Positions 49,091 through 61,132 of a stretch of 64,000 bases of DNA are shown piece by piece (the stretch's first letter is position 1; the number at the start of each line of letters is the position of its first letter). Where the stretch lies: NCBI RefSeq assembly GCF_003173615.1, contig NZ_QGNA01000001.1, positions 558,001-622,000 of the forward strand, in the 5' to 3' direction. The notes beneath the pieces were generated by a model. That model was not told the origin of the DNA. It saw nothing but the letters and a program-made list of their open reading frames with translations, and searched no databases. The translations under genes and the position numbers were made by a program. The DNA comes from Falsiroseomonas bella (GTDB taxonomy: Bacteria; Pseudomonadota; Alphaproteobacteria; Acetobacterales; Acetobacteraceae).

Positions 49091-49582
49091 ATGCTCGGCC
49101 GTGCCGTACCGCTGGCTTCGCCCCTCGACGCCGCTCGCTTCGCGCCGGCCGCCCGGCGGCGGTTGGGCGGTCCGGGCCTGCGCGCCTTCCAGCACATCGC
49201 CGACCTCTGGCGCCTCACCGAAGCCGAGCGACTGCTGGTGCTAGGCCTGCCGTCCCGCTCAACCTTCTATGGCTGGCTCAAGGCGGCGGAGGTGACCCTG
49301 CCGGTGGATGTGCTGCTGCGCATCTCCGCCGTTCTCGGCATCCACAAGGCCCTGCGCATCCTGTTCGAGACCGAGGCCGAGGGCGCCGCCTGGCTGCGCG
49401 CCGCGAATGCCGCGCTGCCCTTCGCCGGCCAGGCGCCGCTCGCCCTGATCACGGGCGGCACACAGGACGGCCTGATGCAGGTGCGGCGCTTCCTCGATGC
49501 CGCGCGCGGCGGGCTGCACATGGCGCCCAATGCTGCCGACGAGGCGCCGCCCTGGCGCGACGACGACATCGTGATCGCGTGA
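49091..49582 (+). CDS. Xre/MbcA/ParS-type antitoxin
   Basis: A 163-residue antitoxin. The N-terminal HTH region is LTEAERLLVLGLPSRSTFYGWL and the following helices; the C-terminal toxin-binding domain (DUF2384) appears as AAWLRAANAALPFAGQAPLALITGG. It neutralises the RES toxin encoded next and probably binds the dyad upstream. ATG 49091 has GAGGAGG six bases upstream. The toxin start overlaps its stop as GTGA. Confidence 0.88.
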   Translation: MLGRAVPLASPLDAARFAPAARRRLGGPGLRAFQHIADLWRLTEAERLLVLGLPSRSTFYGWLKAAEVTLPVDVLLRISAVLGIHKALRILFETEAEGAAWLRAANAALPFAGQAPLALITGGTQDGLMQVRRFLDAARGGLHMAPNAADEAPPWRDDDIVIA

Positions 49583-50256
49583 GCGACACGCCGCGCTGCG
49601 CGCCGCCGCAGCCTTGCCATCGCCTGATTCCCTCTCGCTTCCCGCCGGTCCAGGCCTTCGACTTCTGCACCTCGCCCGAGGAACTGGAGGCGGTGATCGA
49701 GCTGGAAGGCTGGACCAACGACAGGCTGGTCGCCGAACGCCTTGCGCGGCTCGACCGCGACGAGTGGGTGTTCGGCGTGCCCAATGCGAGCGTCGTCATG
49801 GCCGCCTTCCTCCACGCCGCGCCGGCCGGCACGCGCTTCGCCGGACCGGAGCTCGGCGCCTGGTACGCCAGCGCCGCGCTCCGCACCGCAATCGCCGAGG
49901 TCGCGCATCATCTGCGGCGCGAGGCGGTGGCGCTCGGCCGGGCGGCGATGCGGCGGAGCTACCGCGCCTATCGCGCGACGCTCTCGGGCGATGACTGGCG
50001 CGACCTGCGCATCGCCGCGCCACCGGGCGTCCTCGACCGGCACAGCCACGCCGCGGGCCAGCTGCTTGGCGAGGCGGCGCGCGCCGCCGGCGAGGCCGGC
50101 TTCGTGTATCCCAGCCTGCGTCATGCGGGCGGCGTGAACATCGTCGCGTATCGGCCACGCCGCATCGGCGCGGTGACGCAGGCCGAGCATTTCGACATCA
50201 CCGCGCCGCGACAGGGGAAGGTTGTCGCGCGACTGCTGCGGGGTGGCTACCAGTAG
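49579..50256 (+). CDS. RES-domain toxin
   Basis: A 225-residue toxin of the RES family, whose characterised members deplete NAD+ or ADP-ribosylate targets. The conserved region begins HRLIPSRFPP (residues 14-23). Also visible are a region like TRFAGPELGAWYASAALRTAI and YPSLRHAGGVNIVAY near the end. It starts at GTG 49579, overlapping the antitoxin. Its last ten bases overlap the convergent trmO gene. Confidence 0.88.
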   Translation: MSDTPRCAPPQPCHRLIPSRFPPVQAFDFCTSPEELEAVIELEGWTNDRLVAERLARLDRDEWVFGVPNASVVMAAFLHAAPAGTRFAGPELGAWYASAALRTAIAEVAHHLRREAVALGRAAMRRSYRAYRATLSGDDWRDLRIAAPPGVLDRHSHAAGQLLGEAARAAGEAGFVYPSLRHAGGVNIVAYRPRRIGAVTQAEHFDITAPRQGKVVARLLRGGYQ

Positions 50257-50708: not shown

Positions 50709-52135
50709 TGGAAGATCGGCACCTGCGGCGTGTCCGGCACGGCGGGTGGGGGGGGCAGGTCGATGATGACCGTGCTCGGGTCCACCTTCGGGCCGCGGTC
50801 CAGCCAGTAGGTCACGCTCTCCGGCCAGAAGATCACGATCGCCACCAGCAGCAGCTGCAGGCCGAGCCAGGGGATTGCGCCGAGATAGATGTCCTTGGTC
50901 AGCACCTCCTTCGGCGCGATGCCGCGCAGGTAGAACAGCGCGAAGCCGAAGGGCGGATGCATGAAGCTGGTCTGCATGTTGATGCAGATCAGCACGCCGA
51001 ACCACACCAGGTCGATGCCGAGGTTCTTCGCCACGGGCGCCAGCAGCGGGATGACGATGAAGGCGATCTCGAAGAAGTCGAGGAAGAACGCCAGGAAGAA
51101 GATGAAGATGTTGACGAAGATCAGGAAGCCCGTGGCGCCGCCCGGCAGGTAGGACAGCAGGTGCTCGATCCAGATGCCGCCATCCACGCCCTGGAACACC
51201 AGGCTGAAGACAGTGGCGCCGATCAGGATGTAGATCACCATCGCCGTGATGCGCGTGGTGTTCGCCATGGCCTGGCGCACCAGCGGCCAGCTCAGGCGGC
51301 GGTTGATTGCCGCCAGCACCACCGCGCCGACCACGCCCATCGCGCCGGCCTCGGTCGGCGTCGCCAGCCCCATGAAAATTGTGCCCAGCACCATGAAGAT
51401 CAGCACGATGGAGGGCACCATGCCCTTCAGCACGCGCCACCACAGGCGCCAGTCGCGCGGCACCAGGGCCTCCGGCGGCAGGGGCGGGACCTTCTGCGGC
51501 GCGACGATGCTCACCACCGCGATGAAGGCCAGGAACAGCGCGATCTGCAGCAGGGACGGGCCGATGGCGCCGGCATACATGTCGCCGACCGACTGCCCCA
51601 GCTGGTCGCCCAGCACGATCAGCACGAGGGAGGGCGGGATCACCTGCGTGATCGTGCCACTGGCCGCGATCACGCCGGTCGCGATCCGCATGTCGTAGCC
51701 GTAGCGCATCATGATGGGCAGGCTGATCATGCCCATCGCGATCACGCTGGCCGCCACCGTGCCGGTGATGGCACCCAGGATCGCGCCGACGATGATCACC
51801 GCATAAGCCAGCCCGCCGGGAATCTTGCCGAAGAGCTGCCCGGTGCCTTCCAGCAGGTCCTCCGCCAGGCCGCAGCGTTCCAGGATCGCCCCCATCAAGG
51901 TGAAGAAGGGGATCGCCAGCAGCAGGTCGTTGGAGAGGATGTTGAAGACGCGCAGCGGCAGGTTGTTGAGGAAGGCGTCGGGGAACAGCCCGATCTCGAT
52001 CGAAAGGAAGCCGAAGAACAGCCCGACCGCGGCCAGCGAGAACGCGGCCGGGAAGCCGAACAGCAGGAACAGGATCAGGCCGCCGAACATCAGCGGCGGC
52101 ATCAGGTCCTCGGAGGGGATGCCGAACAGCGTCAC
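50705..52135 (-). CDS. dctM: TRAP transporter large permease (DctM)
   Basis: A 476-residue, about twelve-helix TRAP transporter channel subunit. It begins MTLFGIPSEDLMPPLMFGG from a GTG at 52135 that overlaps the dctQ stop (GTGA). Conserved segments include PFFTLMGAILERCGLAEDL, IAASGTITQVIPPSLVLIVLGDQ and LATPTEAGAMGVVGAV. A long upstream open frame that would give a 1459-residue protein is not real. Substrate is set by the missing DctP receptor. Confidence 0.94.
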   Translation of the reverse strand: MTLFGIPSEDLMPPLMFGGLILFLLFGFPAAFSLAAVGLFFGFLSIEIGLFPDAFLNNLPLRVFNILSNDLLLAIPFFTLMGAILERCGLAEDLLEGTGQLFGKIPGGLAYAVIIVGAILGAITGTVAASVIAMGMISLPIMMRYGYDMRIATGVIAASGTITQVIPPSLVLIVLGDQLGQSVGDMYAGAIGPSLLQIALFLAFIAVVSIVAPQKVPPLPPEALVPRDWRLWWRVLKGMVPSIVLIFMVLGTIFMGLATPTEAGAMGVVGAVVLAAINRRLSWPLVRQAMANTTRITAMVIYILIGATVFSLVFQGVDGGIWIEHLLSYLPGGATGFLIFVNIFIFFLAFFLDFFEIAFIVIPLLAPVAKNLGIDLVWFGVLICINMQTSFMHPPFGFALFYLRGIAPKEVLTKDIYLGAIPWLGLQLLLVAIVIFWPESVTYWLDRGPKVDPSTVIIDLPPPPAVPDTPQVPIFQ

Positions 52136-52737
52136 TGCTCGGGCCTCGCGTAGGAGGCGTGGATGCGCCCTTCGGGCACATGGATGCCGCGCAGCAGCGC
52201 GACGCGCTTGATCAGCTCCGACAGGCCCTGCAGCGTGATCAGGGCGAAGCCCAGCGGCATCAGGATCTTCACCGGCCAGCGGATCAGTCCGCCGGGGGAG
52301 GAGGAGGTCTCGGCCCGCACCCAGGATTCCACGAAGAAGGGCCAGGTCATCCAGGCGAGCAGCGCCATGGCGGGCAGCAGGAACAGGCTGATCCCGATCA
52401 CGTCCACCCAGATGCGTCGCCGTTCCGACAAGGCGCCGTAGAGCACGTCCACCCGCACATGCTCGTTGCGGAACAGCGTGTAGCTGCCGCCGAGCATCAC
52501 CACCGCGGCGAACAAGTACCACTGCCCCTCGAGCGAGGCGTTGGAGCCGAGCGAGAAGCCGTAGCGCAGGAAGGCGTTGCCGGCCGAGAGCGCGCAGGCC
52601 AGCAGCACGCACCAGTCCGCCACGCGCCCGAGGCGCGCGTTGAGCGAATCGACCAAGCGGCTGAAGGCGAGCAGGGCGCCCATGGGCCTTGGCGTTTCTC
52701 CCGGCGGGGGCGGCTTCGGCGCCGCGGAGCCGGCCAC
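52132..52737 (-). CDS. dctQ: TRAP transporter small permease (DctQ)
   Basis: A 201-residue, four-helix partner of DctM. The core LACALSAGNAFLRYGF and NEHVRVDVLYG matches DctQ family proteins. ATG 52737 or 52683 may be the start; the first is shown. No dctP lies on either side, the upstream neighbour being the divergent Hyf-like operon. Confidence 0.88.
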   Translation of the reverse strand: MAGSAAPKPPPPGETPRPMGALLAFSRLVDSLNARLGRVADWCVLLACALSAGNAFLRYGFSLGSNASLEGQWYLFAAVVMLGGSYTLFRNEHVRVDVLYGALSERRRIWVDVIGISLFLLPAMALLAWMTWPFFVESWVRAETSSSPGGLIRWPVKILMPLGFALITLQGLSELIKRVALLRGIHVPEGRIHASYARPEQ

Positions 52738-52873: not shown

Positions 52874-54892
52874 GTGCTGACGGCGATCCTCCTCACCCTG
52901 CTCGGGCTGGTGCTGCTGGCGCTGGCCATGCCGGTGCTGGCCGGCCGCCGGATCGCGCCGCGGCTGGCCCATGGCGGCTCGGCGCTGGCCTCGGCGGTTT
53001 TCGTGCTGATGGCGGTCGCCGCCCTGGCCGGGGGTGGGGCGCCGGTGGCGGAGCTGCCCTTCGGCACGCCCTTCGGGCCGCTGCTGGTGGCGCTGGACGG
53101 GCTTTCGGCCTGGTTCCTGCTGCTGCTCGGCCTGGCGGGGCTCTGTGCGTCGGTCTTCGCGCTGGCGCATGAGGATGCGGCGCCGGCGCGGGCGCTGCTG
53201 GCCTATCCGCTGTTCCTCGCCGGCATGGCGCTGACACTGCTGGCGGCGGACGGCGTCACGCTGCTGCTCGGCTTCGAGGCGATGTCGCTCGCGAGCTGGG
53301 CGCTGGTGGCGTCCGACCATGCGAAGGCGGAGAATCGCCGGGCCGCCCGGCTGTATCTGGTTTTCGCGGCGCTGGCGGCGGTCTGCCTGGTGCCGGCGCT
53401 CGGCCTGCTGGCTGGACCGGGCGGCGACCTGGCCTTCGCGGCGATCCGGGAGGCGCCGCCGGATGGCTGGCGGGCGGCGCTGATCCTGGCGCTGGTCGTG
53501 GCCGGAGCCGGGGCCAAGGCGGGGCTGGTGCCGCTGCATGCCTGGCTGCCGCTCGCCCATCCCGCGGCGCCGAGCCATGTCTCGGCGCTGATGTCGGCCG
53601 CCATGACCAAGGTCGCGCTGTATGTCGCGGCGCGGATGCTGCTCGATCTCGGCGGGCCGGCGCAGCCCGTGTGGTGGGGCGTGCCGCTGGTCGCGCTGGG
53701 CGCGGCCTCGGCCGTGCTGGGCGCCTTGCGCGCCAATCTGGAGGAGGAGGGAAAGACCCTGCTCGCCTTCTCCACCATCGAGAATGTGGGGCTGGTGGCG
53801 GTGGGGCTCGGGCTGGCGGCCTGCTTCCGCGCGGCCGATCTCGGGGCGCTGGCGGCGCTGGCGGCGGGGGCGGCGCTGCTGCATGCGCTGAACCACGGGG
53901 TCTTCAAGACGCTGCTCTTCCTCGGCATGGGGGAGGTCGCGCATGGCGCGGGATCGCGGCTGCTGGACCGGCTGGGCGGGCTGATCCACGCGATGCCCTG
54001 GACCGCCGCCTGCATGCTGGTGGGCGTGGGCGCGGCGGCGAGCCTGCCGCCGCTCTCGGGATTCGCGAGCGAATGGCTGCTGCTGCAGGCGCTGATCGCC
54101 GCCTGGCGCGTCGGTGACCTGACGGTGCAGATGCTGGTGCTGGTCGCCGCCGCCATGGTCGCGCTGGCCGCGGCGCTGGCGGCGGCGGCGATGGTGCGGC
54201 TGTTCGGCCTTGTGTTCCTCGGCCGGCCGCGTTCCCCGCGCGGGGCGGGGGCGCATGAGGGCAAGGGCGCCGCGCGCCTCTCCCTGCTGTTGCCGGCCGG
54301 GCTGACGGTGCTGCTCGGCCTGCTGCCCGGACCGATGCTCGCGCTCGGCGGCGGCGCGCAGGCGCTGCTGACCGGGCAGGCGATGGAGGGGCGCGCCGGC
54401 CTCGCCTTCGTGGCCGTCGGGGACGGCGCGGCCGCCTATTGGCCGCTCGGCGCCGCGCTGCTGCTCGCGCTCGCGCTGTTCGGCGTCTGGCTGCTGGTGA
54501 AGCGCGGCACGGAGGAACCGGCGCGCGGCCCCGCCTGGGATTGCGGCTTTGCCGCACCGCCGCAGCACCTGCCCTTCGGCGACCCGCTGACCCAGCCCAC
54601 CGCGGCCGGCATGGGTCAGCCGCTGCGCCGCATGCTCGCCCAGCCCGTGCTGGCGGTGACGGAGCGGGTGGAGATGCCGGAGCCCGGCACGGTGGCGCCG
54701 GCGCGGATCGCGATGTCCTTCGGCGATCCTGCCTTCGCGCTGCTGCTGGCGCCGCTGGCGACCGCGCGGGATGCGGTGGTGGCGCGGACGGAACGGCTGC
54801 GCGACCTCTCCATCCGGCAATGCCTGATGCTGCCCTTCGCCGCGCTGGTCGCGCTGCTGCTGCTGGTGGCTTGGTTGGAGGGCGGCGCGTGA
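52874..54892 (+). CDS. hyfB: Hydrogenase-4/complex-I-type antiporter-like subunit (HyfB-like)
   Basis: A 672-residue, multi-helix proton-pumping-type membrane subunit of the NuoL/MrpA superfamily. The central region (LLLGFEAMSLASWALV, then GAGAKAGLVPLHAWLPLAHPAAPSHVSALMSAAMTK in parts, and ALNHGVFKTLLFLGMGEV) has the conserved channel Lys and Glu residues. It has the long C-terminal extension seen in HyfB. Start GTG 52874. It is first in a run of seven genes. The stop lies within a 19-bp repeat that is copied at the next start. Confidence 0.9.
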   Translation: MLTAILLTLLGLVLLALAMPVLAGRRIAPRLAHGGSALASAVFVLMAVAALAGGGAPVAELPFGTPFGPLLVALDGLSAWFLLLLGLAGLCASVFALAHEDAAPARALLAYPLFLAGMALTLLAADGVTLLLGFEAMSLASWALVASDHAKAENRRAARLYLVFAALAAVCLVPALGLLAGPGGDLAFAAIREAPPDGWRAALILALVVAGAGAKAGLVPLHAWLPLAHPAAPSHVSALMSAAMTKVALYVAARMLLDLGGPAQPVWWGVPLVALGAASAVLGALRANLEEEGKTLLAFSTIENVGLVAVGLGLAACFRAADLGALAALAAGAALLHALNHGVFKTLLFLGMGEVAHGAGSRLLDRLGGLIHAMPWTAACMLVGVGAAASLPPLSGFASEWLLLQALIAAWRVGDLTVQMLVLVAAAMVALAAALAAAAMVRLFGLVFLGRPRSPRGAGAHEGKGAARLSLLLPAGLTVLLGLLPGPMLALGGGAQALLTGQAMEGRAGLAFVAVGDGAAAYWPLGAALLLALALFGVWLLVKRGTEEPARGPAWDCGFAAPPQHLPFGDPLTQPTAAGMGQPLRRMLAQPVLAVTERVEMPEPGTVAPARIAMSFGDPAFALLLAPLATARDAVVARTERLRDLSIRQCLMLPFAALVALLLLVAWLEGGA

Positions 54893-54921
54893 GCGCGCCG
54901 ACGTTGGAGGGCGGCGCGTGA
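54874..54921. repeat. 19-bp direct repeat spanning hyfB stop and hyfC start
   Basis: GTTGGAGGGCGGCGCGTGA occurs exactly at 54874-54892 and 54903-54921, 29 bp apart. Each copy holds a GGAGG ribosome site and a GTGA stop/start. The first copy ends hyfB and opens a ten-codon frame whose stop lies in the second copy, which in turn starts hyfC. Confidence 0.85.
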
Positions 54922-55877
54922 TCGTCCTCGCCGCGATCCTGACCCAGCTCTTGCACCTGGCCTTGGTGCTGGTGGCGGCGCCGCTGGTGGTCGGCGGCGT
55001 GCGCTGGCTGAAGGCGCGCATGATGGGCCGCATCGGCCCGCATCCGCTGCAGCCCTGGCGCGACCTGCTCAAGCTGCTGCGCAAGCGGCCGGTACTGGCG
55101 GAGAATGCCAGCTGGATCAGCCGTGCCGCGCCTTATGTGGCCGTGGGCGCCGCCGTGGCGGCGCTGGCGCTGGTGCCGAGTTTTTCACGCGCGATGCTGT
55201 TCGCCCCGATGTCGGACCTGCTGCTGATCGCGGGGCTGCTGGCGCTGGGCCGTGTCGCGCTGGCGCTCGCGGGCATGGATGTCGGCACCGCCTTCGGCGG
55301 GCTCGGCGCGGCGCGCGAAATGTCCTTCGCGGCGCTGGCGGAACCGGCGCTGCTGCTGGTGGCGCTGAGCTTCGCGATCCTGGCCGGCAGCACCGGCCTC
55401 GAGCAGATCGCCGCCACCTTCCAGGACGGCGCGGTGGGGCTGCGCGTCTCGCTGGCGCTGGCGCTGATCGCGCTCTGTGCCGTGGCCGTGGCGGAGAATG
55501 CGCGCATCCCGGTGGACAACCCGGCGACGCATCTGGAACTGACGATGGTGCATGAGGCGATGATTCTGGAAGCCTCCGGCCGGCATCTGGCGCTCTGGGA
55601 AGCGGCGGCGGCGCTGCGGCTGACGCTGTGGCTGGCGCTGATCGTCGCGGTGTTCCTGCCCTTCGGTACGGCGCCGGCGGGTTTTGCGCCGTTCGGCTGG
55701 GTGCTGGGCGTGGTGGCTTGGATCGCGAAGATGGCGCTGCTGTGCTTCGCGCTTGCGGCGTTCGAAAGCGCCATCGCCAAGATGCGCGTCTTCCGCGTTC
55801 CGGAGTTTTTGGGGGCCGCGCTGTTGCTGGGGCTGCTGGGCGCGATCCTGTTGTTCGTTTCGACGAGGCTGGCGTGA
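54918..55877 (+). CDS. hyfC: Hydrogenase-4/complex-I-type membrane subunit (HyfC / NuoH-like)
   Basis: A 319-residue, about eight-helix subunit equivalent to NuoH/HycD. The conserved early segment GGVRWLKARMMGRIGPHPLQPWRDLLKL and the cytoplasmic loop NARIPVDNPATHLELTMVHEAMILEASGR (in parts) match the quinone/large-subunit interface region. GTG 54918 is the start. Confidence 0.93.
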   Translation: MIVLAAILTQLLHLALVLVAAPLVVGGVRWLKARMMGRIGPHPLQPWRDLLKLLRKRPVLAENASWISRAAPYVAVGAAVAALALVPSFSRAMLFAPMSDLLLIAGLLALGRVALALAGMDVGTAFGGLGAAREMSFAALAEPALLLVALSFAILAGSTGLEQIAATFQDGAVGLRVSLALALIALCAVAVAENARIPVDNPATHLELTMVHEAMILEASGRHLALWEAAAALRLTLWLALIVAVFLPFGTAPAGFAPFGWVLGVVAWIAKMALLCFALAAFESAIAKMRVFRVPEFLGAALLLGLLGAILLFVSTRLA

Positions 55878-55895
55878 TGGGTGAGGTCGGCCGCG

Positions 55896-55991
55896 CCCCC
55901 ACCCTGACCCTCCCCCGCACTGCGGGGGAGGGAGCGGAGCGCGCCGCCAATCACTCCCTCCCCTGCTTGCGGGGGAGGGCTGGGGTGGGGG
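55896..55991. repeat. Two GC-rich palindromic elements, copies C and D, in inverse orientation
   Basis: Copy C (55896-55935) and copy D (about 55953-55991) are related to copies A and B, each with a ~10-bp CCCTCCCC...GGGGAGGG palindrome. They face each other around a 17-bp core. They fill the 154-bp hyfC-hyfE gap, the largest gap in the operon. Confidence 0.85.
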
Positions 55992-56031
55992 CACGACTGA
56001 CAGCGCAGGATCGTGTGCGGATACCGCGCCC

Positions 56032-56706
56032 ATGACATCAGGCTTCGGCACCCCGGCCTACGACGTCTCGCACCTGATCGGCGGCGGCGTGCTGCTGCTG
56101 TCCTTCGTGATGCTCTACCAGCGTCGCATCGGCGCGGTGATCAACGTCTTCGCCGTGCAGGGCGCGCTGCTCGCCTGCGCCGCGGCGTGGCAGGGATATG
56201 TGCAATCCGCGCCGGAACTCTATCTGACCGCGTTGATCGCCTTCGGCGCCAAGGCCGTCGCGATTCCCCTGGCGCTGCGTCTGCTGGTCGGGCGGCTCGG
56301 GCTGCACAAGGCGGTGGAGACATCAATCGGCATCGGCGCCTCGCTCGCTGCCGCCATCGGGCTGGTCGGGCTTTCCGTACTTGTGGTGCTGCCCGTGACA
56401 GCGGGCGGCGCGACGCCGCTGGCGCGGGTGGACCTGACCATCGCGCTGTCCGTCGTGCTGTTGGGGATGCTGGCGATGATCGCGCGACGCAACGCGATCA
56501 GCCAGGTGATCGGGCTGCTGACGCTGGAGAACGGGCTGATCCTGGCGGCCGTCGGCGTCGCGGGCATGCCGCTGGTGGTGGAGCTTTCGACCGCGGCGCT
56601 GGTGCTGATGGTGGCCCTCGTCGCGGCCGTCGTCGTGTTCCAGATACGCGACCGGCTGGATACGCTCGACACGCATGTGCTCGACCGGGCGCGGGGCGAC
56701 AGCTGA
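56032..56706 (+). CDS. hyfE: Hydrogenase-4 component E-like subunit (HyfE)
   Basis: A 224-residue membrane protein with about six or seven helices; the core IARRNAISQVIGLLTLENGLILAAVG is typical of HyfE/MrpC-NuoK-like subunits, with a conserved Glu. It overlaps hyfF by one base. Confidence 0.88.
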   Translation: MTSGFGTPAYDVSHLIGGGVLLLSFVMLYQRRIGAVINVFAVQGALLACAAAWQGYVQSAPELYLTALIAFGAKAVAIPLALRLLVGRLGLHKAVETSIGIGASLAAAIGLVGLSVLVVLPVTAGGATPLARVDLTIALSVVLLGMLAMIARRNAISQVIGLLTLENGLILAAVGVAGMPLVVELSTAALVLMVALVAAVVVFQIRDRLDTLDTHVLDRARGDS

Positions 56707-58157
56707 TGCCGCTGCCCTGGGTCCTGGTGTTCTTTCCCTGGCTCGGCGCGGTCGCGCTCGCGCTGATCCCGCCCCGCTTCGGCGTGGGCCGCTTCGTCAA
56801 TATCGGCATCGCCGCGGGCTCGCTGGTGATCGCGCTGCTGCTGCTCGGCCATCCGCATGGCGAGCAGGGCTGGACGCGCACCGATGCGCTCAACCTCCCC
56901 TTCGTCGCGGTCTCCGCGCTGGTCGGGCTGACCACCGCGATCTTCTCCGCCGCCACGCTCGACGCCGAGAAGTTCGACAGCCTGCGGATCCGCGCCTACC
57001 ACACCGCCTTCCAGGTCTTCATGGGCGCGCAGTTCCTGGCGCTCGTCTCCGACAATCTCGGCGTGATGTGGGTGGCGATCGAGATCGCGACGCTCGCCTC
57101 CGTGCTGATGGTCGGCGTGCACGGCACCCCCGCCGCCATCGAGGCCGCCTGGAAGTTTTTCGTGCTGTGCGGCGTGGGGATCGCACTCGCGCTGTTCGGG
57201 ACGATCCTTTTGTACCTCGCGGCGCAGCCGGTCGTCGGCAGCGGCGATCCGGGGCTTTCCTGGGCGGCGCTGCAGGCCGTGGCGGCGAACTGCGATCCGG
57301 GGCTGCTCTCGCTGGCCTTCGTCTTCCTGCTGGTGGGCTACGGCACCAAGGCGGGCCTCGTCCCGCTGCATTCCTGGCTGCCGGATGCCGAGGCCGAGGG
57401 GCCGCTGCCGATCTGCGCCGTGCTGTCCGGCCTGCTGCTGAACGCGGCGCTGCTGGCCATCCTGCGCGCGGAATCCATCGTCGGTGCGAACCCCGCCGCG
57501 CTGCCGCCCGGTCCCTTCCTGATCGGCTTCGGCCTGCTCTCCCTGCTGCTCGCGGCCTTCTCGCTGTGGCGGCGACGCGATGCGCGGCGGCTGTTTGCCT
57601 GGAGTTCGATCGAGCATGTCGGCCTCGCGACCCTCGCCTTCGGCATCGGCGGCGCGGTGGCGAACCTGGCCGGCATCATCCACCTGCTCGGCCATTCGCT
57701 GGTGAAGAGCGGCGTCTTCTTCGCCGTCGGCGCCGCGGCGCAGCTCAAGGGCAGCCAGAAGCTGCAGGACATCGGCGGTCTGGTGGCGAGTCATCCGGCG
57801 CTGGGCTGGGGCCTGGCGCTCGGCATCGCGGCGCTGGCGGGCATGCCGCCCTTCGCGCTGTTCCTCTCGGAGTTGCGCCTGGTCGCGGAGGCGGCGGCGC
57901 AGATCCCGTGGCTGGTCGTGCCGATCGGCCTCGGCCTGCTCACCGCCGCCGCGGCGCTGATCCGCGCCTTGCAGCAGCTGTGCCTGGGCGAGCCGACGCG
58001 CGACAACCCCGTGCCCGGCGCCTTCCACCTGCCGGGCGGGTTGGCCTGGGCGACGGTGCCGGTCTGGCTGCATTTGGCGCTGGCCGCCGCGCTGATCCTG
58101 CTGGCGCCGCCGGCCTTCACCGCGCTGCTGCGCGGCGGTGCGGAGATCCTGGGATGA
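56706..58157 (+). CDS. hyfF: Hydrogenase-4 component F-like antiporter subunit (HyfF)
   Basis: A 483-residue, multi-helix NuoN/MrpD-type subunit. Conserved: VGYGTKAGLVPLHSWLPDAEAEGP and HLLGHSLVKSGVFFAVG. With HyfB it gives two antiporter-like modules; HyfD, the third in E. coli hydrogenase-4, is absent. Overlaps the next gene by four bases. Confidence 0.92.
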   Translation: MPLPWVLVFFPWLGAVALALIPPRFGVGRFVNIGIAAGSLVIALLLLGHPHGEQGWTRTDALNLPFVAVSALVGLTTAIFSAATLDAEKFDSLRIRAYHTAFQVFMGAQFLALVSDNLGVMWVAIEIATLASVLMVGVHGTPAAIEAAWKFFVLCGVGIALALFGTILLYLAAQPVVGSGDPGLSWAALQAVAANCDPGLLSLAFVFLLVGYGTKAGLVPLHSWLPDAEAEGPLPICAVLSGLLLNAALLAILRAESIVGANPAALPPGPFLIGFGLLSLLLAAFSLWRRRDARRLFAWSSIEHVGLATLAFGIGGAVANLAGIIHLLGHSLVKSGVFFAVGAAAQLKGSQKLQDIGGLVASHPALGWGLALGIAALAGMPPFALFLSELRLVAEAAAQIPWLVVPIGLGLLTAAAALIRALQQLCLGEPTRDNPVPGAFHLPGGLAWATVPVWLHLALAAALILLAPPAFTALLRGGAEILG

Positions 58158-59674
58158 GCGGCGCTGCGTCCGACCTGATCCGTCGCGGCGCGCCGCAGGG
58201 CTGCCGGCCCTTCGAGCGGTACCTGCTGACGCAATCCGCCTTCGCCGGGCTGCGCGATGCGCTGCCGCAGGAACCGACGCTCGCGCTGCTCTCCCTCTGG
58301 GCCGAGCCTTCCGCGATCCACGCCGCCTTCCTGGACGAGGCGGCTGAACGGGGCACGCTGCTGCTCGCTTCCTGCTTCGCGACGGAACAAAAATACCCGG
58401 CGCTGTCGCCGGTGCGGCCGGGGGCGGTGCGGTTCGAGCGCGCGATCCGCGACCTCTGGGGCCTGACGTCGGAGGGCGGCGTTGACCTGCGCCCCTGGCT
58501 GGATCACGGCCGCTGGCCGGTGCAGGCGCCGCTCTCGGCAAGGCCCTCGCGCGATCCCGTGCCGCCGCTGCAGCCGGAATTCCTGCCGATCGAGGGCGAG
58601 GGGTGGCACCAGATCCCCGTCGGCCCGGTGCATGCCGGCGTGATCGAGCCCGGCCATTTCCGCTTCACCGTGCAGGGCGAGACGGTGGTGCGGCTGGAGC
58701 AGCTGCTCGGCTACACGCACAAGGGCACGCTCTCGCTCATGGTCGGCAAGTCGCCGCGCGCGGCGGCGCGCTTCGCCGCGCGGCTCTCGGGCGACACGAC
58801 GGTGGCGCATTCCCTCGCCTTCGCCCTCGCCGCGGAGGCCGCGATCGGCGCGCAGCCGCCCCGGCGCGCGGTGCTGCTGCGCGCCGCGATGCTGGAACTG
58901 GAGCGGATCGCGAACCACCTGAATGATTGGGGGTTCATCTGCAACGACGCCGCCTTCGTCTATCCGCATGCGCGCTGCGGCGAGTTGCGCGAAGGCGTGC
59001 TGCGCGCCAACGCGGCCGCCTTCGGGCACCGGCTGATGATGGATGTGGTGATCCCCGGCGGCCTTTCCGTGGACATCGCGCCGGGCGGCGAGGCGGCGAT
59101 CCTCGCCGCACTGGCCGCGGCGGAAGCCGAGATCGCGCCGCTGCTGACGATCTACGAGACGCATGCCAGCCTGCAGGACCGCGTGGTCGGCACCGGAACC
59201 CTGAAGCCTGATCTCGCCGCGCGCTTCGCCGCGGGCGGGCATGTCGGCCGTGCTTCCGGCCGCGGCTTCGATGCACGCCGCGTGCTGCCGCATGCGCCCT
59301 ATGACGCCATCGCCTTCGAGGTGCCGGTGCTCGCCGAAGGCGACGTGGATGCGCGGGTGCGGGTGCGCGTGGCGGAGTTGCGGGAAAGCATCCGGATCGT
59401 CCGCGCGCTGCTCGCCGCGCTGGAACCCGGCGAGATCCACCAGCCGCTGCCGCAGAAAGGCGGCGAGGGCATCGCCGCCGTCGAGGGCTTCCGGGGCGAG
59501 ATCCTGACCTGGATGGCGCTCGATGATGGCGGGATCATCCGCGCCGTGTTCCCGCGCGATCCCTCCTGGCTGCAATGGCCGCTGCTGGAAGCAGCAATCG
59601 AGGGAAACATCGTCGCGGACTTCCCGTTGTGCAACAAGTCGTTCAACTGCTCCTACAGCGGGGTGGACCTGTGA
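58154..59674 (+). CDS. NuoCD/HyfG-like large subunit without [NiFe] ligands
   Basis: A 506-residue protein: an N-terminal NuoC-like part and a NuoD/HyfG-like large-subunit domain (residues ~150-506; VGPVHAGVIEPGHFRF, GYTHKGT). Where HycE/HyfG carry RxCGxC, this has RLSGDTTVAH with Ser212 and Thr215. At the C-terminus, in place of DPCxxC, there is only CNKSFNC (Cys493, Cys499; spacing differs). It therefore should not bind a NiFe centre, and looks like the large subunit of an energy-converting-hydrogenase-related (Ehr) complex or a complex-I-like module. What it reacts with is unknown. Confidence 0.9.
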   Translation: MSGAASDLIRRGAPQGCRPFERYLLTQSAFAGLRDALPQEPTLALLSLWAEPSAIHAAFLDEAAERGTLLLASCFATEQKYPALSPVRPGAVRFERAIRDLWGLTSEGGVDLRPWLDHGRWPVQAPLSARPSRDPVPPLQPEFLPIEGEGWHQIPVGPVHAGVIEPGHFRFTVQGETVVRLEQLLGYTHKGTLSLMVGKSPRAAARFAARLSGDTTVAHSLAFALAAEAAIGAQPPRRAVLLRAAMLELERIANHLNDWGFICNDAAFVYPHARCGELREGVLRANAAAFGHRLMMDVVIPGGLSVDIAPGGEAAILAALAAAEAEIAPLLTIYETHASLQDRVVGTGTLKPDLAARFAAGGHVGRASGRGFDARRVLPHAPYDAIAFEVPVLAEGDVDARVRVRVAELRESIRIVRALLAALEPGEIHQPLPQKGGEGIAAVEGFRGEILTWMALDDGGIIRAVFPRDPSWLQWPLLEAAIEGNIVADFPLCNKSFNCSYSGVDL

Positions 59675-59692
59675 TGGCGAAGGCGGCCTGAC

Positions 59693-59926
59693 ATGGCGCG
59701 CTTCCCGACCCTGGCGGGCGAGGCCGCCGGCGCCTCCGGCATGTTCACCGTCACCCTCGTGAAGCCCGGAAAGGGCCGGCAGGTGGCCGAGCACTGGGCC
59801 TATGACGAGCGCGGCCAGGCCCTGGCCGAGCTCGGCCTGATCGCGGAGCGCGTGCCGCCGGGCACCGAGCTGGTGCTCCGCGACCCCGAGGGCAACGACC
59901 TGCTGCGCATCGCGCGGCTGGCCTAG
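59693..59926 (+). CDS. Unrecognised 77-residue protein in the Hyf-like operon
   Basis: A compact, soluble-looking protein (MARFPTLAGEAAGASG, then VTLVKPGKGRQVAEHW and RDPEGNDLLRIARLA). It starts 19 bp after the large-subunit gene and ends 11 bp before the small-subunit gene, both on the same strand. I know no equivalent in the E. coli hyf or hyc operons. No cysteines, membrane helix or signal peptide, so it is not an Fe-S subunit. It could be an assembly or accessory subunit; this is a guess from position. Confidence 0.65.
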   Translation: MARFPTLAGEAAGASGMFTVTLVKPGKGRQVAEHWAYDERGQALAELGLIAERVPPGTELVLRDPEGNDLLRIARLA

Positions 59927-59937
59927 GAGGAGACCCG

Positions 59938-60477
59938 ATGCTCTGGCCACGGCTCGGCAAGCGCCTGCTCGGCCGCCCGCTGACGGATGCGGCGCCCGCG
60001 GCGCCGGATGAGGTGGTGCAGGCCCTGGCAGCGCGGCTGGAGGCGACGGCGCGCGCCCGGCTCGGCCGCAGCCTGGCCATCCGGGAGGTGGATGCCGGCA
60101 GCTGCAATGGCTGCGAGCTGGAGGCGAACGCCATGGCCGGCGTGCTCTACGACATGGAGCGCTTCGGCCTGCGCATCGTGGCCAGCCCCCGCCATGCCGA
60201 TGTGCTGCTGGTCACCGGCCCCGTCACCCGCAACATGCGGGAGGCGCTGCTGCGAACGCGGGAGTGCACGCCCGATCCCTGCTGGATCGTCGCCGCCGGC
60301 GACTGCGCGGCGGATGGCGGCGTGTTCAAGGGCAGCTACGGGGTGGAGGCCGGCGTGGCCAATGTGCTGCCGGTGGACCTGGTGATCCCCGGCTGCCCGC
60401 CCACGCCGCTGCAATTGCTGGAAGGGCTGCTCTCCCTGCTGGAGGCGCAGGAGCCGCGCCGGCCGGGCCAGGGCTGA
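59938..60477 (+). CDS. hyfI: NuoB/HyfI-like Fe-S small subunit
   Basis: A 179-residue protein that should carry one [4Fe-4S] cluster, the N2-type cluster of complex I. Four cysteines are in the expected places: SCNGCE (Cys56, Cys59), GDC (Cys123) and PGCPPTP (Cys153). ATG 59938 has GGAGGAGA upstream. It closes the operon. No ferredoxin-like HyfA or HyfH gene is adjacent. Confidence 0.93.
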   Translation: MLWPRLGKRLLGRPLTDAAPAAPDEVVQALAARLEATARARLGRSLAIREVDAGSCNGCELEANAMAGVLYDMERFGLRIVASPRHADVLLVTGPVTRNMREALLRTRECTPDPCWIVAAGDCAADGGVFKGSYGVEAGVANVLPVDLVIPGCPPTPLQLLEGLLSLLEAQEPRRPGQG

Positions 60478-60586: not shown

Positions 60587-61042
60587 TCAGCGCGCGCGGT
60601 AGTCCCGGTGGCAGGCGGCGCAGACGCCGCCGGTGCTGCGCAGCATGTCGGCGGTGACCCCGCCGCTCGCCGCCGCCGTCTTCATCGTGTTCAGCGCGGC
60701 AATCATGTTCTGCGCACGCGTTCCGAAATCGGCGCGGTTGGCCTCGATCGCGGCGAGCGCGCGGGTCTGGCCCTCGCCCGTGCCCTGCGCGACCGGCGGC
60801 GTCAGGCTGTTGGCGGGGAAGCGACCGGGCAGCGACTGGTAGAAGGCGATCATCTGGTCCACGCGGGCGACGATCGGCGCCTGGTCGCCGCGCGACTGCA
60901 CCACGGCGCCGATCGCTTCCATGTTCTGGCCCATCTGCCTGAGGCCCGCGCGGCGCTCGGAGATCACGTCGCCCTGCGCCATCGCGGCGCCGGCCATGCC
61001 AAGCCCCGCGGCCATCGTGGCCGCCAGCATCCATACCCGCAT
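60587..61042 (-). CDS. Cytochrome c'-type protein
   Basis: A 151-residue exported c-type cytochrome. The signal peptide (MRVWMLAATMAAGLGMAGAAMAQ) is followed by RRAGLRQMGQNMEAIG, the typical first helix of cytochrome c', and the haem motif CAACH is near the end, as in this four-helix family. The family binds NO and may protect against it. ATG 61042 has GGAGGGG six bases upstream. It is convergent with the Hyf-like operon. Confidence 0.92.
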   Translation of the reverse strand: MRVWMLAATMAAGLGMAGAAMAQGDVISERRAGLRQMGQNMEAIGAVVQSRGDQAPIVARVDQMIAFYQSLPGRFPANSLTPPVAQGTGEGQTRALAAIEANRADFGTRAQNMIAALNTMKTAAASGGVTADMLRSTGGVCAACHRDYRAR

Positions 61043-61132
61043 CAGCAACCCCTCCTTGTGGGAAGGCGGGATGCTTGCAGCACCTGTATGACCGCGCAAC
61101 GGTGCGTTGCGTGACGAAGCGTTGCGCCCGGC

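Follow-up and report, generated by a model that had tools for sequence, protein, structure and literature searches.

What might be the reaction of a complex that is assembled from hydrogenase 4-like subunits, and whose large subunit has no cysteines to hold a [NiFe] centre? The question is raised by seven genes, all on the + strand, at positions 52874-60477 of a 64,000-nucleotide stretch of Falsiroseomonas bella DNA (the window). A sequence-only reading had described them as encoding HyfB, HyfC, HyfE, HyfF, a NuoCD/HyfG-like protein, a 77-residue protein and a HyfI-like subunit, and all seven were found as placed, with profile matches for the named subunits (Table 1).

Table 1. Genes of the operon, with positions in the window
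Feature	Coordinates	Strand	Remarks
HyfB/HyqB, antiporter-like membrane subunit	52874..54892	+	672 aa, GTG start
HyfC/HyqC, NuoH-like membrane subunit	54918..55877	+	319 aa, GTG start; PF00146 E=3.9e-35
HyfE/HyqE, NuoK/J-like membrane subunit	56032..56706	+	224 aa
HyfF/HyqF, second antiporter-like membrane subunit	56706..58157	+	483 aa; 1-base overlap with hyfE
HyfG/HyqG, NuoCD-like large subunit without [NiFe] ligands	58154..59674	+	506 aa; 4-base overlap with hyfF
77-aa ORF (x77) between G and I	59693..59926	+	no Pfam match above cut-off
HyfI/HyqI, NuoB-like small subunit	59938..60477	+	179 aa; PF01058 E=5.6e-31

Identity and spread of the operon

HyfB and HyfF both match PF00361 (E=8.8e-46 and 1.5e-44, respectively), and their best NCBIfam matches are the models of hydrogenase 4 subunit B (E=3.3e-174, 581 bits against a cut-off of 667) and subunit F (E=1.1e-155, 519 bits against a cut-off of 533). 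HyfE best matches the NCBIfam hydrogenase 4 membrane subunit (E=1.4e-18) and also hits PF00420 (E=9.7e-5), each under its cut-off. The failure of all three to reach the curated hydrogenase-4 cut-offs is as expected, since they are relatives and not true hydrogenase-4 parts. HyfG, which ends in ...SYSGVDL, matches PF00346 (E=1e-34) and PF00329. The operon thus has homologs of B, C, E, F, G, and I of E. coli Hyf/Hyc, but lacks the ligand cysteines, HyfA, HyfD, HyfH, HyfJ, and an adjoining maturation protease; HyfG stops where the HycE sequence continues. The absence of HyfD and of a ferredoxin-type subunit had been pointed out in the sequence-only reading. Both are indeed missing from the operon, but the lack of HyfD says little, because the operon encodes B and F, both of the antiporter type, and the missing ferredoxin subunit is common to the family. 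The core of complex I is likewise represented by NuoB, NuoCD, NuoH, NuoK/J, and NuoL/M/N-like parts; unlike complex I, the loci have no NADH-module genes nearby.

In published descriptions of Ehr (energy-converting hydrogenase-related) systems (PMC6349859, PMC12342949, PMC10284858, PMC7304191, PMC7894505), the complexes of Geobacter, Nitrospira, Margulisbacteria, and CPR bacteria combine a group-4-like large subunit without NiFe ligands with antiporter-like membrane subunits, and by that description the window operon is of the same make, although the formate dehydrogenase linkage of some described Ehr complexes is not seen here. The closest studied relative, which the earlier reading missed, is the hyq operon of Azorhizobium caulinodans, called an "endo-hydrogenase" on the basis of in vivo H2 phenotypes; its authors found no CxxC motifs (PMC2650096, PMC2930871, PMC3357923). 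As judged from these published descriptions, with sequence comparisons made against copies from the species and genera named there (Rhodopseudomonas palustris, Bradyrhizobium, Azospirillum, and R. johnstonii 3841), the window shares with Hyq six structural subunits in the identical order B-C-E-F-G-I, a NuoCD-fusion large subunit without both CxxC motifs (504 aa in HyqG, 506 aa in the window), a pair of Cys spaced by six residues and located 13 and 7 residues short of the C-terminus, and a small subunit with the four N2 cysteines. It differs from Hyq in its extra 77-aa ORF and in having no hyqR-like gene before hyfB. We consider it to be, with a probability of about 0.9, a hyq-type operon of the Ehr kind, that is, a minimal relative, with six subunits, of both complex I and the group-4 hydrogenases.

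In the literature searched, we found no cross-naming between the Ehr and Hyq work, and the one paper that contains both names is a dataset paper, in which they stand as entries in a list of tripeptides. Joining Ehr, whose function is unknown, to Hyq, which has in vivo hydrogen phenotypes, creates a testable conflict: either an enzyme free of metal ligands handles H2, or the published phenotypes stem from something else. The sequence-only reading was therefore right that the Ehr class fits, but the same operon had been studied as hyq, so that its reaction is better called disputed, between H2 phenotypes on one side and missing ligands on the other.

A homologous large subunit was found in 86/200 sampled genomes of the order, spread over 26/51 genera (E<=1e-60). 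Gene calls on 152 loci, made with a custom codon-bias caller, gave the B-C-E-F-G-I order in 94 of the 115 loci with room for it, and in 3 more with x77 included (a VOC gene between G and I was not scored as a break). Given this frequency and recurring order, the locus is not a chance assembly. The ORF x77 is confined, among the 200 sampled genomes of the order, to six of the window's genus, each with a single copy that always sits between G and I. Its predicted fold is beta-beta-alpha-beta-beta (pLDDT 79.9, in a model built on two sequences), for which no PDB match was obtained at E<=0.001.

No homologs of HyfA, HyfH, HyfJ, HycB, HycI, HycH, or NuoEFG were detected in 148 loci at E<=1e-5. HycF, the homolog of HyfH, gave one weak match (26.8% identity) at the far edge of the stretch around locus L120, and a double-[4Fe-4S] motif occurred in 1/2407 ORFs. 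It follows that no electron-input module travels with the operon. The recurrent neighbors in the 148 loci were a small HTH gene (42 loci), a TRAP pair (28 and 26), an aldo/keto-reductase-type gene (24), and DUF1489 (21), as named by Pfam from one member per group, with DctM named by eye. We rejected the idea of a linked electron donor, as there was no conserved partner gene. A hyqR gene precedes hyqB in 38/67 rhizobial-clade loci, compared with 1/50 others, and that sole non-rhizobial locus (L160), left out of the tree on account of its shortness, has its nearest relatives in the rhizobial clade. Neither a NifA nor a sigma-54 consensus was found upstream of the window operon, and the two sites occurred together in 0/118 other loci, the rhizobial ones included, in a scan that may have been too strict.

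The large-subunit cavity and the pump residues

When HyfG is aligned with E. coli HycE and HyfG, the four ligand columns, all cysteine in the two E. coli proteins, read S212, T215, S500, and G503, which confirms the earlier report of Ser212 and Thr215 in place of the N-terminal ligands. Across 145 large subunits, the window included, these columns together hold a single cysteine, at 212, and never one at 215, 500, or 503; four cysteine ligands were not found in the large subunit. The differently spaced Cys pair said to replace the C-terminal DPCxxC is C493/C499, which adjoins the ligand columns without lying in them. The pair exists as described, with S500 and G503 in the ligand columns, but is not family-wide. 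As a general ligand set it was rejected, both positions being non-Cys in 13/125 large subunits that bear the cavity signature. C263, C493, and C499 of the window are, by position, the counterparts of A. caulinodans residues 258, 491, and 497, the three cysteines proposed in 2012 to be invariant. All three co-occur in 98/145 sequences, namely 74/80 of the rhizobial clade and 24/65 outside it, and all three are missing in 9/125 signature-bearing large subunits. The distribution shows the proposed catalytic cysteines to be dispensable outside one clade.

The polar residues conserved in the cavity are D214, D297, D469, N494-K495-S496-x-N498, Y501, and D505. Among the 125 sequences selected for K495/N498/D505, residues D214, D469, D489, Y501, and G503 are found in 125/125 and D297 in 123/125. 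The NuoCD His and Tyr columns, which we take to be the quinone ligands of complex I, read I164 and G213 in the window, and His occurs at 164 in 4/145 sequences. What was once the metal cavity lacks both the [NiFe] cysteines and the complex I His/Tyr pair, and has conserved polar residues of its own. The best PDB match of HyfG, both by sequence and by fold, is HycE (TM 0.83 for a model whose alignment comprised the window and 48 of the 73 named large subunits available). Confidence in the model is low for residues 139-190 and 486-506, which form the cavity, and no claim about the pocket rests on it.

The N2 [4Fe-4S] ligands of HyfI are C56, C59, C123, and C153, and the four cysteines occur together in 137/139 small subunits. 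Pump-type residues are also retained: HyfB has E135, K215, K246, K345, and E400 (each kept in 103-104/118 copies), HyfC has the acidic loop residues E193, D200, E207, E213, and E218 (119-121/129), and HyfF has E126, K215, K334, and E389 (123-127/132). Their loss follows that of the cavity signature. The full HyfB set was present in 101/101 copies with the signature and 0/15 without it, the HyfC set in 112/115 and 0/12, and the HyfF set in 119/122 and 0/8. The joint loss could look stronger than it is where divergent membrane subunits align poorly, and related copies do not count as independent cases. Copies without the signature occur at scattered places in the tree (a quick build in which 42/145 inner branches are open and the NuoCD branch is very long, with no named Ehr outgroup), and one of them (L037) is a near neighbor of normal copies. 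Because cavity signature and pump residues are lost together, the two belong to one coupled machine, and the joint loss marks residues worth mutating. The N2 cysteines are intact in 17/18 signature-less copies whose HyfI was read; among the 15 with HyfB read, N2 is kept in 13, lost in L071 (three of the four cysteines), and was not read in L072. N2 can thus persist without pumping.

Candidate reactions

We suggest that the complex may act as a redox-driven ion pump. The electron donor would be a separately encoded, soluble low-potential carrier that docks on HyfI; since no electron-input subunit is encoded, ferredoxin or flavodoxin is the best guess. Electrons would pass via N2 between this carrier and a small acceptor in the remodeled cavity, most likely a quinone, and the redox step would drive, or in reverse be driven by, movement of H+ or Na+ through B, C, E, and F. 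We hold this mechanism as a whole at slightly below even odds, a little higher than before the co-loss result, which raised our confidence in it. The I164/G213 pair speaks against a complex-I-like quinone site, and a ferredoxin:quinone reaction does not account for the H2 phenotypes that deletion of hyq has in A. caulinodans.

It is possible, though unlikely, that the pump is the same and that, in place of a quinone, the cavity takes NAD(P), a sulfur species, or some other small molecule as acceptor or donor. MBS is a sulfur-reducing relative. A cavity unlike those of both hydrogenase and complex I would suit such a reaction, and PMC6349859 ascribes a ferredoxin:NADP reaction to Pyrococcus Mbx, described there as hydrogenase-related, but the flanking genes differ from locus to locus, and none for a linked oxidoreductase or a substrate recurs among them.

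Less likely again is the H2:quinone oxidoreductase proposed for Hyq, with a reversible H2 reaction at a non-[NiFe] site coupled to proton movement. Its support is physiological: deletion of hyqRI in A. caulinodans raised H2 evolution ~15-fold at 20 uM O2 and lowered it to 0.4-fold at <1 uM O2; nodule H2 evolution was 27 in the hup hyq double mutant versus 0.30-0.36 in the wild type and single mutants; H2 recycling reportedly persists when the full hup/hyp operon is deleted; and, according to a statement for which no data are presented, it also takes place in a hyq-positive strain that lacks hup/hyp. Against this stand the near absence of cysteine from the ligand columns and the patchy occurrence of the three proposed cysteines outside the rhizobial clade. 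Moreover, the deletion removes the regulator hyqR as well, the words "complementation" and "complemented" are absent from PMC2650096, PMC2930871, and PMC3357923, and the Hyq authors state that no cell-free assay was at hand.

The host genome bears on this conflict. In a genome-wide PF00374 search, HyfG was the sole match, so that no canonical hydrogenase large subunit lies nearby or elsewhere in it; the [FeFe] hydrogenase model PF02906 had no match, HypD gave 0, in line with the earlier remark that hyp maturation genes are absent here, and no nitrogenase was found. In lacking nitrogenase, another [NiFe] large subunit, and HypD, the host is unlike A. caulinodans. For the same reason, together with the missing [FeFe] enzyme, it suits a hydrogen test, since none of these could hide hydrogen turnover by the complex. 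The complex is not a [NiFe] hydrogenase. The broader statement that it should not be a hydrogenase agrees with the missing ligands, second PF00374 protein, and HypD, but conflicts with the published Hyq phenotypes.

We find it very doubtful that the complex is formate-linked, with a formate dehydrogenase handing electrons to HyfI as in the FDH-Ehr model. In the Ehr literature, FDH-Ehr is proposed for Riflemargulisbacteria and Saganbacteria, and Geobacter Ehr subunits are described as reaching higher levels on formate than when hydrogen is present. A search of the host did find an Fdh-alpha protein over cut-off, but on another contig and unlinked to the operon, and an FdhF-type match occurred in 1/148 loci (24.7% identity). 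The host enzyme also carries a NuoG-like N-terminal domain. Such a domain is the mark of NAD-linked enzymes. A separate NuoG with an adjoining NuoH-like gene is encoded as well (named by eye).

A complex with a vestigial redox part, moving ions independently of redox or under redox gating, would fit the antiporter-like subunits and the loss of both known catalytic sites, but it is highly improbable given the near-invariant N2 ligands, kept even in most signature-less copies, and the loss of pump residues exactly where the cavity signature is lost. Very improbable too is that the complex reacts with H2, in line with the A. caulinodans genetics, with neither NiFe ligands nor Hyp proteins; it would then be a fourth, unrecognized kind of hydrogenase, and would occur in many alphaproteobacteria that had not been suspected of hydrogen metabolism, the host among them.

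Nitrogen fixation and phototrophy among carriers

Carriers were defined by E<=1e-60 in the order sample and E<=1e-100 in the class sample, with the host in both. Nitrogenase is absent in 82/86 carriers in the order and 21/24 in the class (no nifD), so that the recycling of nitrogenase H2 is not the general role; this also weighs against the H2:quinone proposal. At the order level, nitrogenase was found in 4/86 carriers versus 5/114 non-carriers (p=1), and at the class level in 3/24 versus 5/265 (p=0.021), so that any link with nitrogen fixation is weak at best and consists of the class-level enrichment. HypD is absent in 72/86 (order) and 18/24 (class) carriers; the 14/86 order carriers with HypD over cut-off compare with 5/114 non-carriers (p=0.006), one further carrier with a match under cut-off having been scored absent. 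The three nifD-positive class carriers all have HypD too, and ordinary [NiFe] hydrogenases may serve them.

Genes resembling bchL or bchX, recognized at the order level from nifH-model scores, were found in 33/86 carriers and 9/114 non-carriers, and by genus in 11/14 versus 15/37 (p=0.027, counted by hand). A link to phototrophy was nevertheless rejected as lineage confounding, as the order-level enrichment vanishes at the class level, where bchX occurs in 1/24 carriers, the host itself, versus 19/265 non-carriers. The host has both a bchL-like and a bchX-like gene, and bch models were applied to these two.

The operon, its host and its surroundings

The sequence-only reading had described a seven-gene Hyf-like operon in the window, and this description was confirmed, as the genes are found at the coordinates listed in the table below and family models agree with, and back, the gene names. 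The hydrogenase-4 models of NCBIfam matched below their cut-offs. The hyfE and hyfF genes overlap by 1 base, and hyfF and hyfG by 4 bases, an arrangement that would fit a translationally coupled operon.

Coordinates of the operon and of nearby genes in the window
Feature	Positions	Strand
RES-domain protein gene (PF08808)	49579-50253	+
TRAP transporter DctQ gene (PF04290)	52132-52737	-
hyfB	52874-54892	+
hyfC	54918-55877	+
hyfE	56032-56706	+
hyfF	56706-58157	+
hyfG	58154-59674	+
77-codon ORF (x77)	59693-59926	+
hyfI	59938-60477	+
Cytochrome c' gene (PF01322)	60587-61099	-

The host genome, of which the window is a 64-kb part, comprises 5.94 Mb in 14 contigs, with a tool-estimated completeness of 100% and a GC content of about 0.69-0.73. 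It contains bchL and bchX, both over cut-off (C1:1528300-1529500 and C1:1548200-1549400, on host contig C1), and given these bacteriochlorophyll genes, the host is probably an aerobic phototroph. Five molybdopterin oxidoreductases are located together on another contig, C9: NarG and an Fdh-alpha with a NuoG-like N-terminus, the latter over cut-off, plus Fdh-like, TorA/BisC-type, and PhsA-like proteins, all below cut-off. In the window, the DctQ gene and the ORF preceding it, which was named DctM-like by eye, are divergent from hyfB, while the cytochrome c' gene is adjacent to the 3' side of hyfI and convergent with it. The RES-domain protein is of a type that serves as the toxin in RES-Xre toxin-antitoxin pairs.

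For comparison, 152 loci were gathered: 72 genome stretches and, from at least 574 named loci, the 80 best. After removal of near-identical large subunits, 148 loci were left. The gene order B-C-E-F-G-I is found in 94 of the 115 loci with room for the whole operon, and three more have the same order with x77. Possible electron-input subunits were searched for with E. coli queries (E<=1e-5) up to 10 kb on either side, less on short contigs. Under these settings, HyfA, HyfH, HyfJ, HycB, HycH, HycI, NuoE, NuoF, and NuoG matched at none of the 148 loci, HycF gave one weak match (locus L120; 26.8% identity), and FdhF gave one match (locus L140; 24.7% identity). Flanking genes differ widely across the loci. 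No electron donor therefore accompanies the operon. A protein of roughly 845 amino acids is encoded near the operon in both L140 and locus L141, on different strands, and it is the L140 copy that is weakly FdhF-like. The clusters of the TRAP pair recur near 26 and 28 of the 148 loci, mostly immediately upstream and divergent.

The large-subunit cavity and the pump residues

It had also been claimed that the large subunit lacks the [NiFe] ligands, and the alignment bears this out: S212, T215, S500, and G503 of the window's HyfG stand in four columns that are all Cys in E. coli HycE and HyfG. Among 145 large subunits (the window and 144 loci, the other 4 of 148 being dropped for a called protein of <440 amino acids), a single Cys is found in column 212, and columns 215, 500, and 503 have none. 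Among solved structures, the closest by sequence is that of formate hydrogenlyase HycE (7z0s_E, E=4.4e-44), with NuoD proteins ranking behind it, and HycE is likewise the best match by fold (TM 0.83). The window's protein ends at L506. The residue before it, D505, is invariant here and occupies the same column as the Asp of the HycE CTDR; HycE extends further and is presumably cut at this point during maturation. The columns that hold His and Tyr in NuoCD, which we take to be quinone-site residues, read I164 and G213 in the window. With both the ligand Cys and the His/Tyr columns substituted, the cavity is not a [NiFe] site, and it is not the quinone site of complex I either.

In 125 large subunits selected for K495, N498, and D505 (the signature-bearing copies), D214, D469, D489, Y501, and G503 are kept without exception, H168 is kept in 124, and D297 in 123. 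At the D297 and D469 columns, HycE/HyfG have Gly/Ala and NuoCD has Ala/Thr. The 20 signature-less sequences all derive from same-family genome stretches that were chosen to include divergent matches.

The four ligands of cluster N2 in the small subunit (C56, C59, C123, and C153) read CCCC in 137 of 139 sequences (the window and 138 loci; 10 of the 148 loci are without a usable HyfI), the exceptions being locus L071 (GCGS) and locus L119, which has a gap at the fourth position. In the membrane arm, antiporter-type charged residues are kept in 103-104 of 118 B and 123-127 of 132 F subunits, and the acidic loop of C in 119-121 of 129. When these residues are sorted by signature, with two copies per subunit unplaced, the full B set (E135, K215, K246, K345, E400) is present in 101/101 signature-bearing versus 0/15 signature-less copies, the full F set (E126, K215, K334, E389) in 119/122 versus 0/8, and the full C set (E193, D200, E207, E213, E218) in 112/115 versus 0/12. 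Cluster N2 is intact in 13 of the 15 signature-less copies with B counted; it is lost in L071, and L072 is unread.

Signature-less copies occur at several positions in the tree, with locus L037 sitting among normal relatives, and because of this spread several independent losses of signature and pump residues are likely. We interpret the co-loss as a functional coupling of cavity chemistry with pumping in normal copies, and the signature-less copies as descendants that are uncoupled or decaying. The size of the effect may be inflated, because divergent membrane proteins align poorly and because copies share ancestry. The loci that have lost the signature along with B, F, or C pump residues are L071-L079 and L083, together with the scattered L037, L049, L057, L058, L059, L061, L066, and L082. 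Their N2 Cys are mostly kept: three of the four are gone in L071, all four are retained in L073, L075-L079, and L083, and L072 and L074 are unread.

Relation to Hyq and a candidate reaction

In a quick tree of large subunits, the window groups with its genus (support 99) within a 26-row group (support 93), and the rhizobial copies fall in an 80-row clade (support 100). Both emerge, along with three other lineages, from a single unresolved fork, and we therefore do not call them sisters. Within the 80-row clade, 67 loci include B, and a hyqR-like gene lies ahead of it in 38 of these versus 1 of 50 other loci; the latter, L160, was left off the tree because of its short length, and it most resembles members of the 80-row clade. 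Identity between the window and Rhizobium johnstonii 3841 is 41% for B, 55% for C, 50% for E, 50% for F, 53% for G, and 64% for I. Going by shared description (group-4-like and without NiFe ligands), we would equate Hyq with the Ehr complexes. In the literature searched, the only paper with both the strings "Hyq" and "Ehr" uses them as tripeptides.

In Azorhizobium caulinodans, expression of the hyqRBCEFGI operon is reported to be NifA-dependent, and a hyqRI deletion, which takes out hyqR too, slows growth on N2 and changes H2 evolution to 15-fold higher at 20 µM O2 and to 0.4-fold below 1 µM O2 (PMC3357923, PMC2650096, PMC2930871). Nodule H2 evolution was 27 µmol per g per h in a hup hyq double mutant versus 0.30-0.36 in the wild type and single mutants. 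The words "complementation" and "complemented" appear in none of the three texts. The authors state that they had no cell-free assay available, that both CxxC motifs are missing from HyqG, that eight genera share three conserved Cys, and that non-diazotrophs are generally without hyq (PMC3357923, PMC2650096, PMC2930871).

The clade that includes the copies from Rhodopseudomonas, Bradyrhizobium, and R. johnstonii 3841 has all three proposed Cys in 74 of its 80 sequences, versus 24 of 65 sequences elsewhere. The window has all three (C263, C493, and C499, judged equivalent to the Hyq Cys by position), and nine signature-bearing sequences have none. In the order sample, nifH is over cut-off in 4/86 carriers of a homologous large subunit and 5/114 non-carriers; in the class sample, nifD is found in 3/24 carriers versus 5/265 non-carriers (p=0.021). 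Nitrogenase enrichment in carriers is thus weak and at class level, and most sampled carriers are not diazotrophs. The search for hyp genes suggested by the sequence-only reading was run over the full host genome for HypD, and none was found; HypD is over cut-off in 14/86 carriers of the order and 6/24 of the class. NifA and sigma-54 consensus sites occur together in 0/118 upstream regions (sigma-54 alone in 1, a NifA box alone in 9), in a scan that rhizobial loci also fail and that may be too strict.

The intact N2 site and pump residues, the missing NiFe ligands and quinone His/Tyr, the co-loss of cavity and pump residues, and the lack of an encoded donor form the basis of a candidate mechanism. 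N2 would exchange electrons, in either direction, with a soluble carrier on HyfI; a small acceptor would be held in the HyfG cavity; and the redox reaction would be coupled to ion movement. Ferredoxin as the carrier and quinone as the acceptor are guesses. We keep as a rival that the complex reacts with H2, as suggested by the hyq phenotype, the observation that argues most strongly against a simple ferredoxin:quinone pump.

The gap between hyfG and hyfI

Of 200 genomes sampled from the order, six encode the 77-amino acid x77; all six belong to the window's genus and have a single copy, located between G and I. Elsewhere, G and I lie close together or are separated by a Glyoxalase_7 (VOC) gene, whose family was assigned from the L081 copy alone. 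The VOC gene is found in 12 of 148 loci (L036, L038, L039, L044, L058, L081, L087, L097, L099, L100, L101, and L106), none of them in the rhizobial clade, and L087, from the same genus as the window, has both it and x77. Locus L098 has another ORF call in the gap. The x77 model (pLDDT 79.9) has a beta-beta-alpha-beta-beta fold, and no PDB entry matches it at E<=0.001. We infer that x77 is a lineage-specific accessory rather than a core part of the complex.
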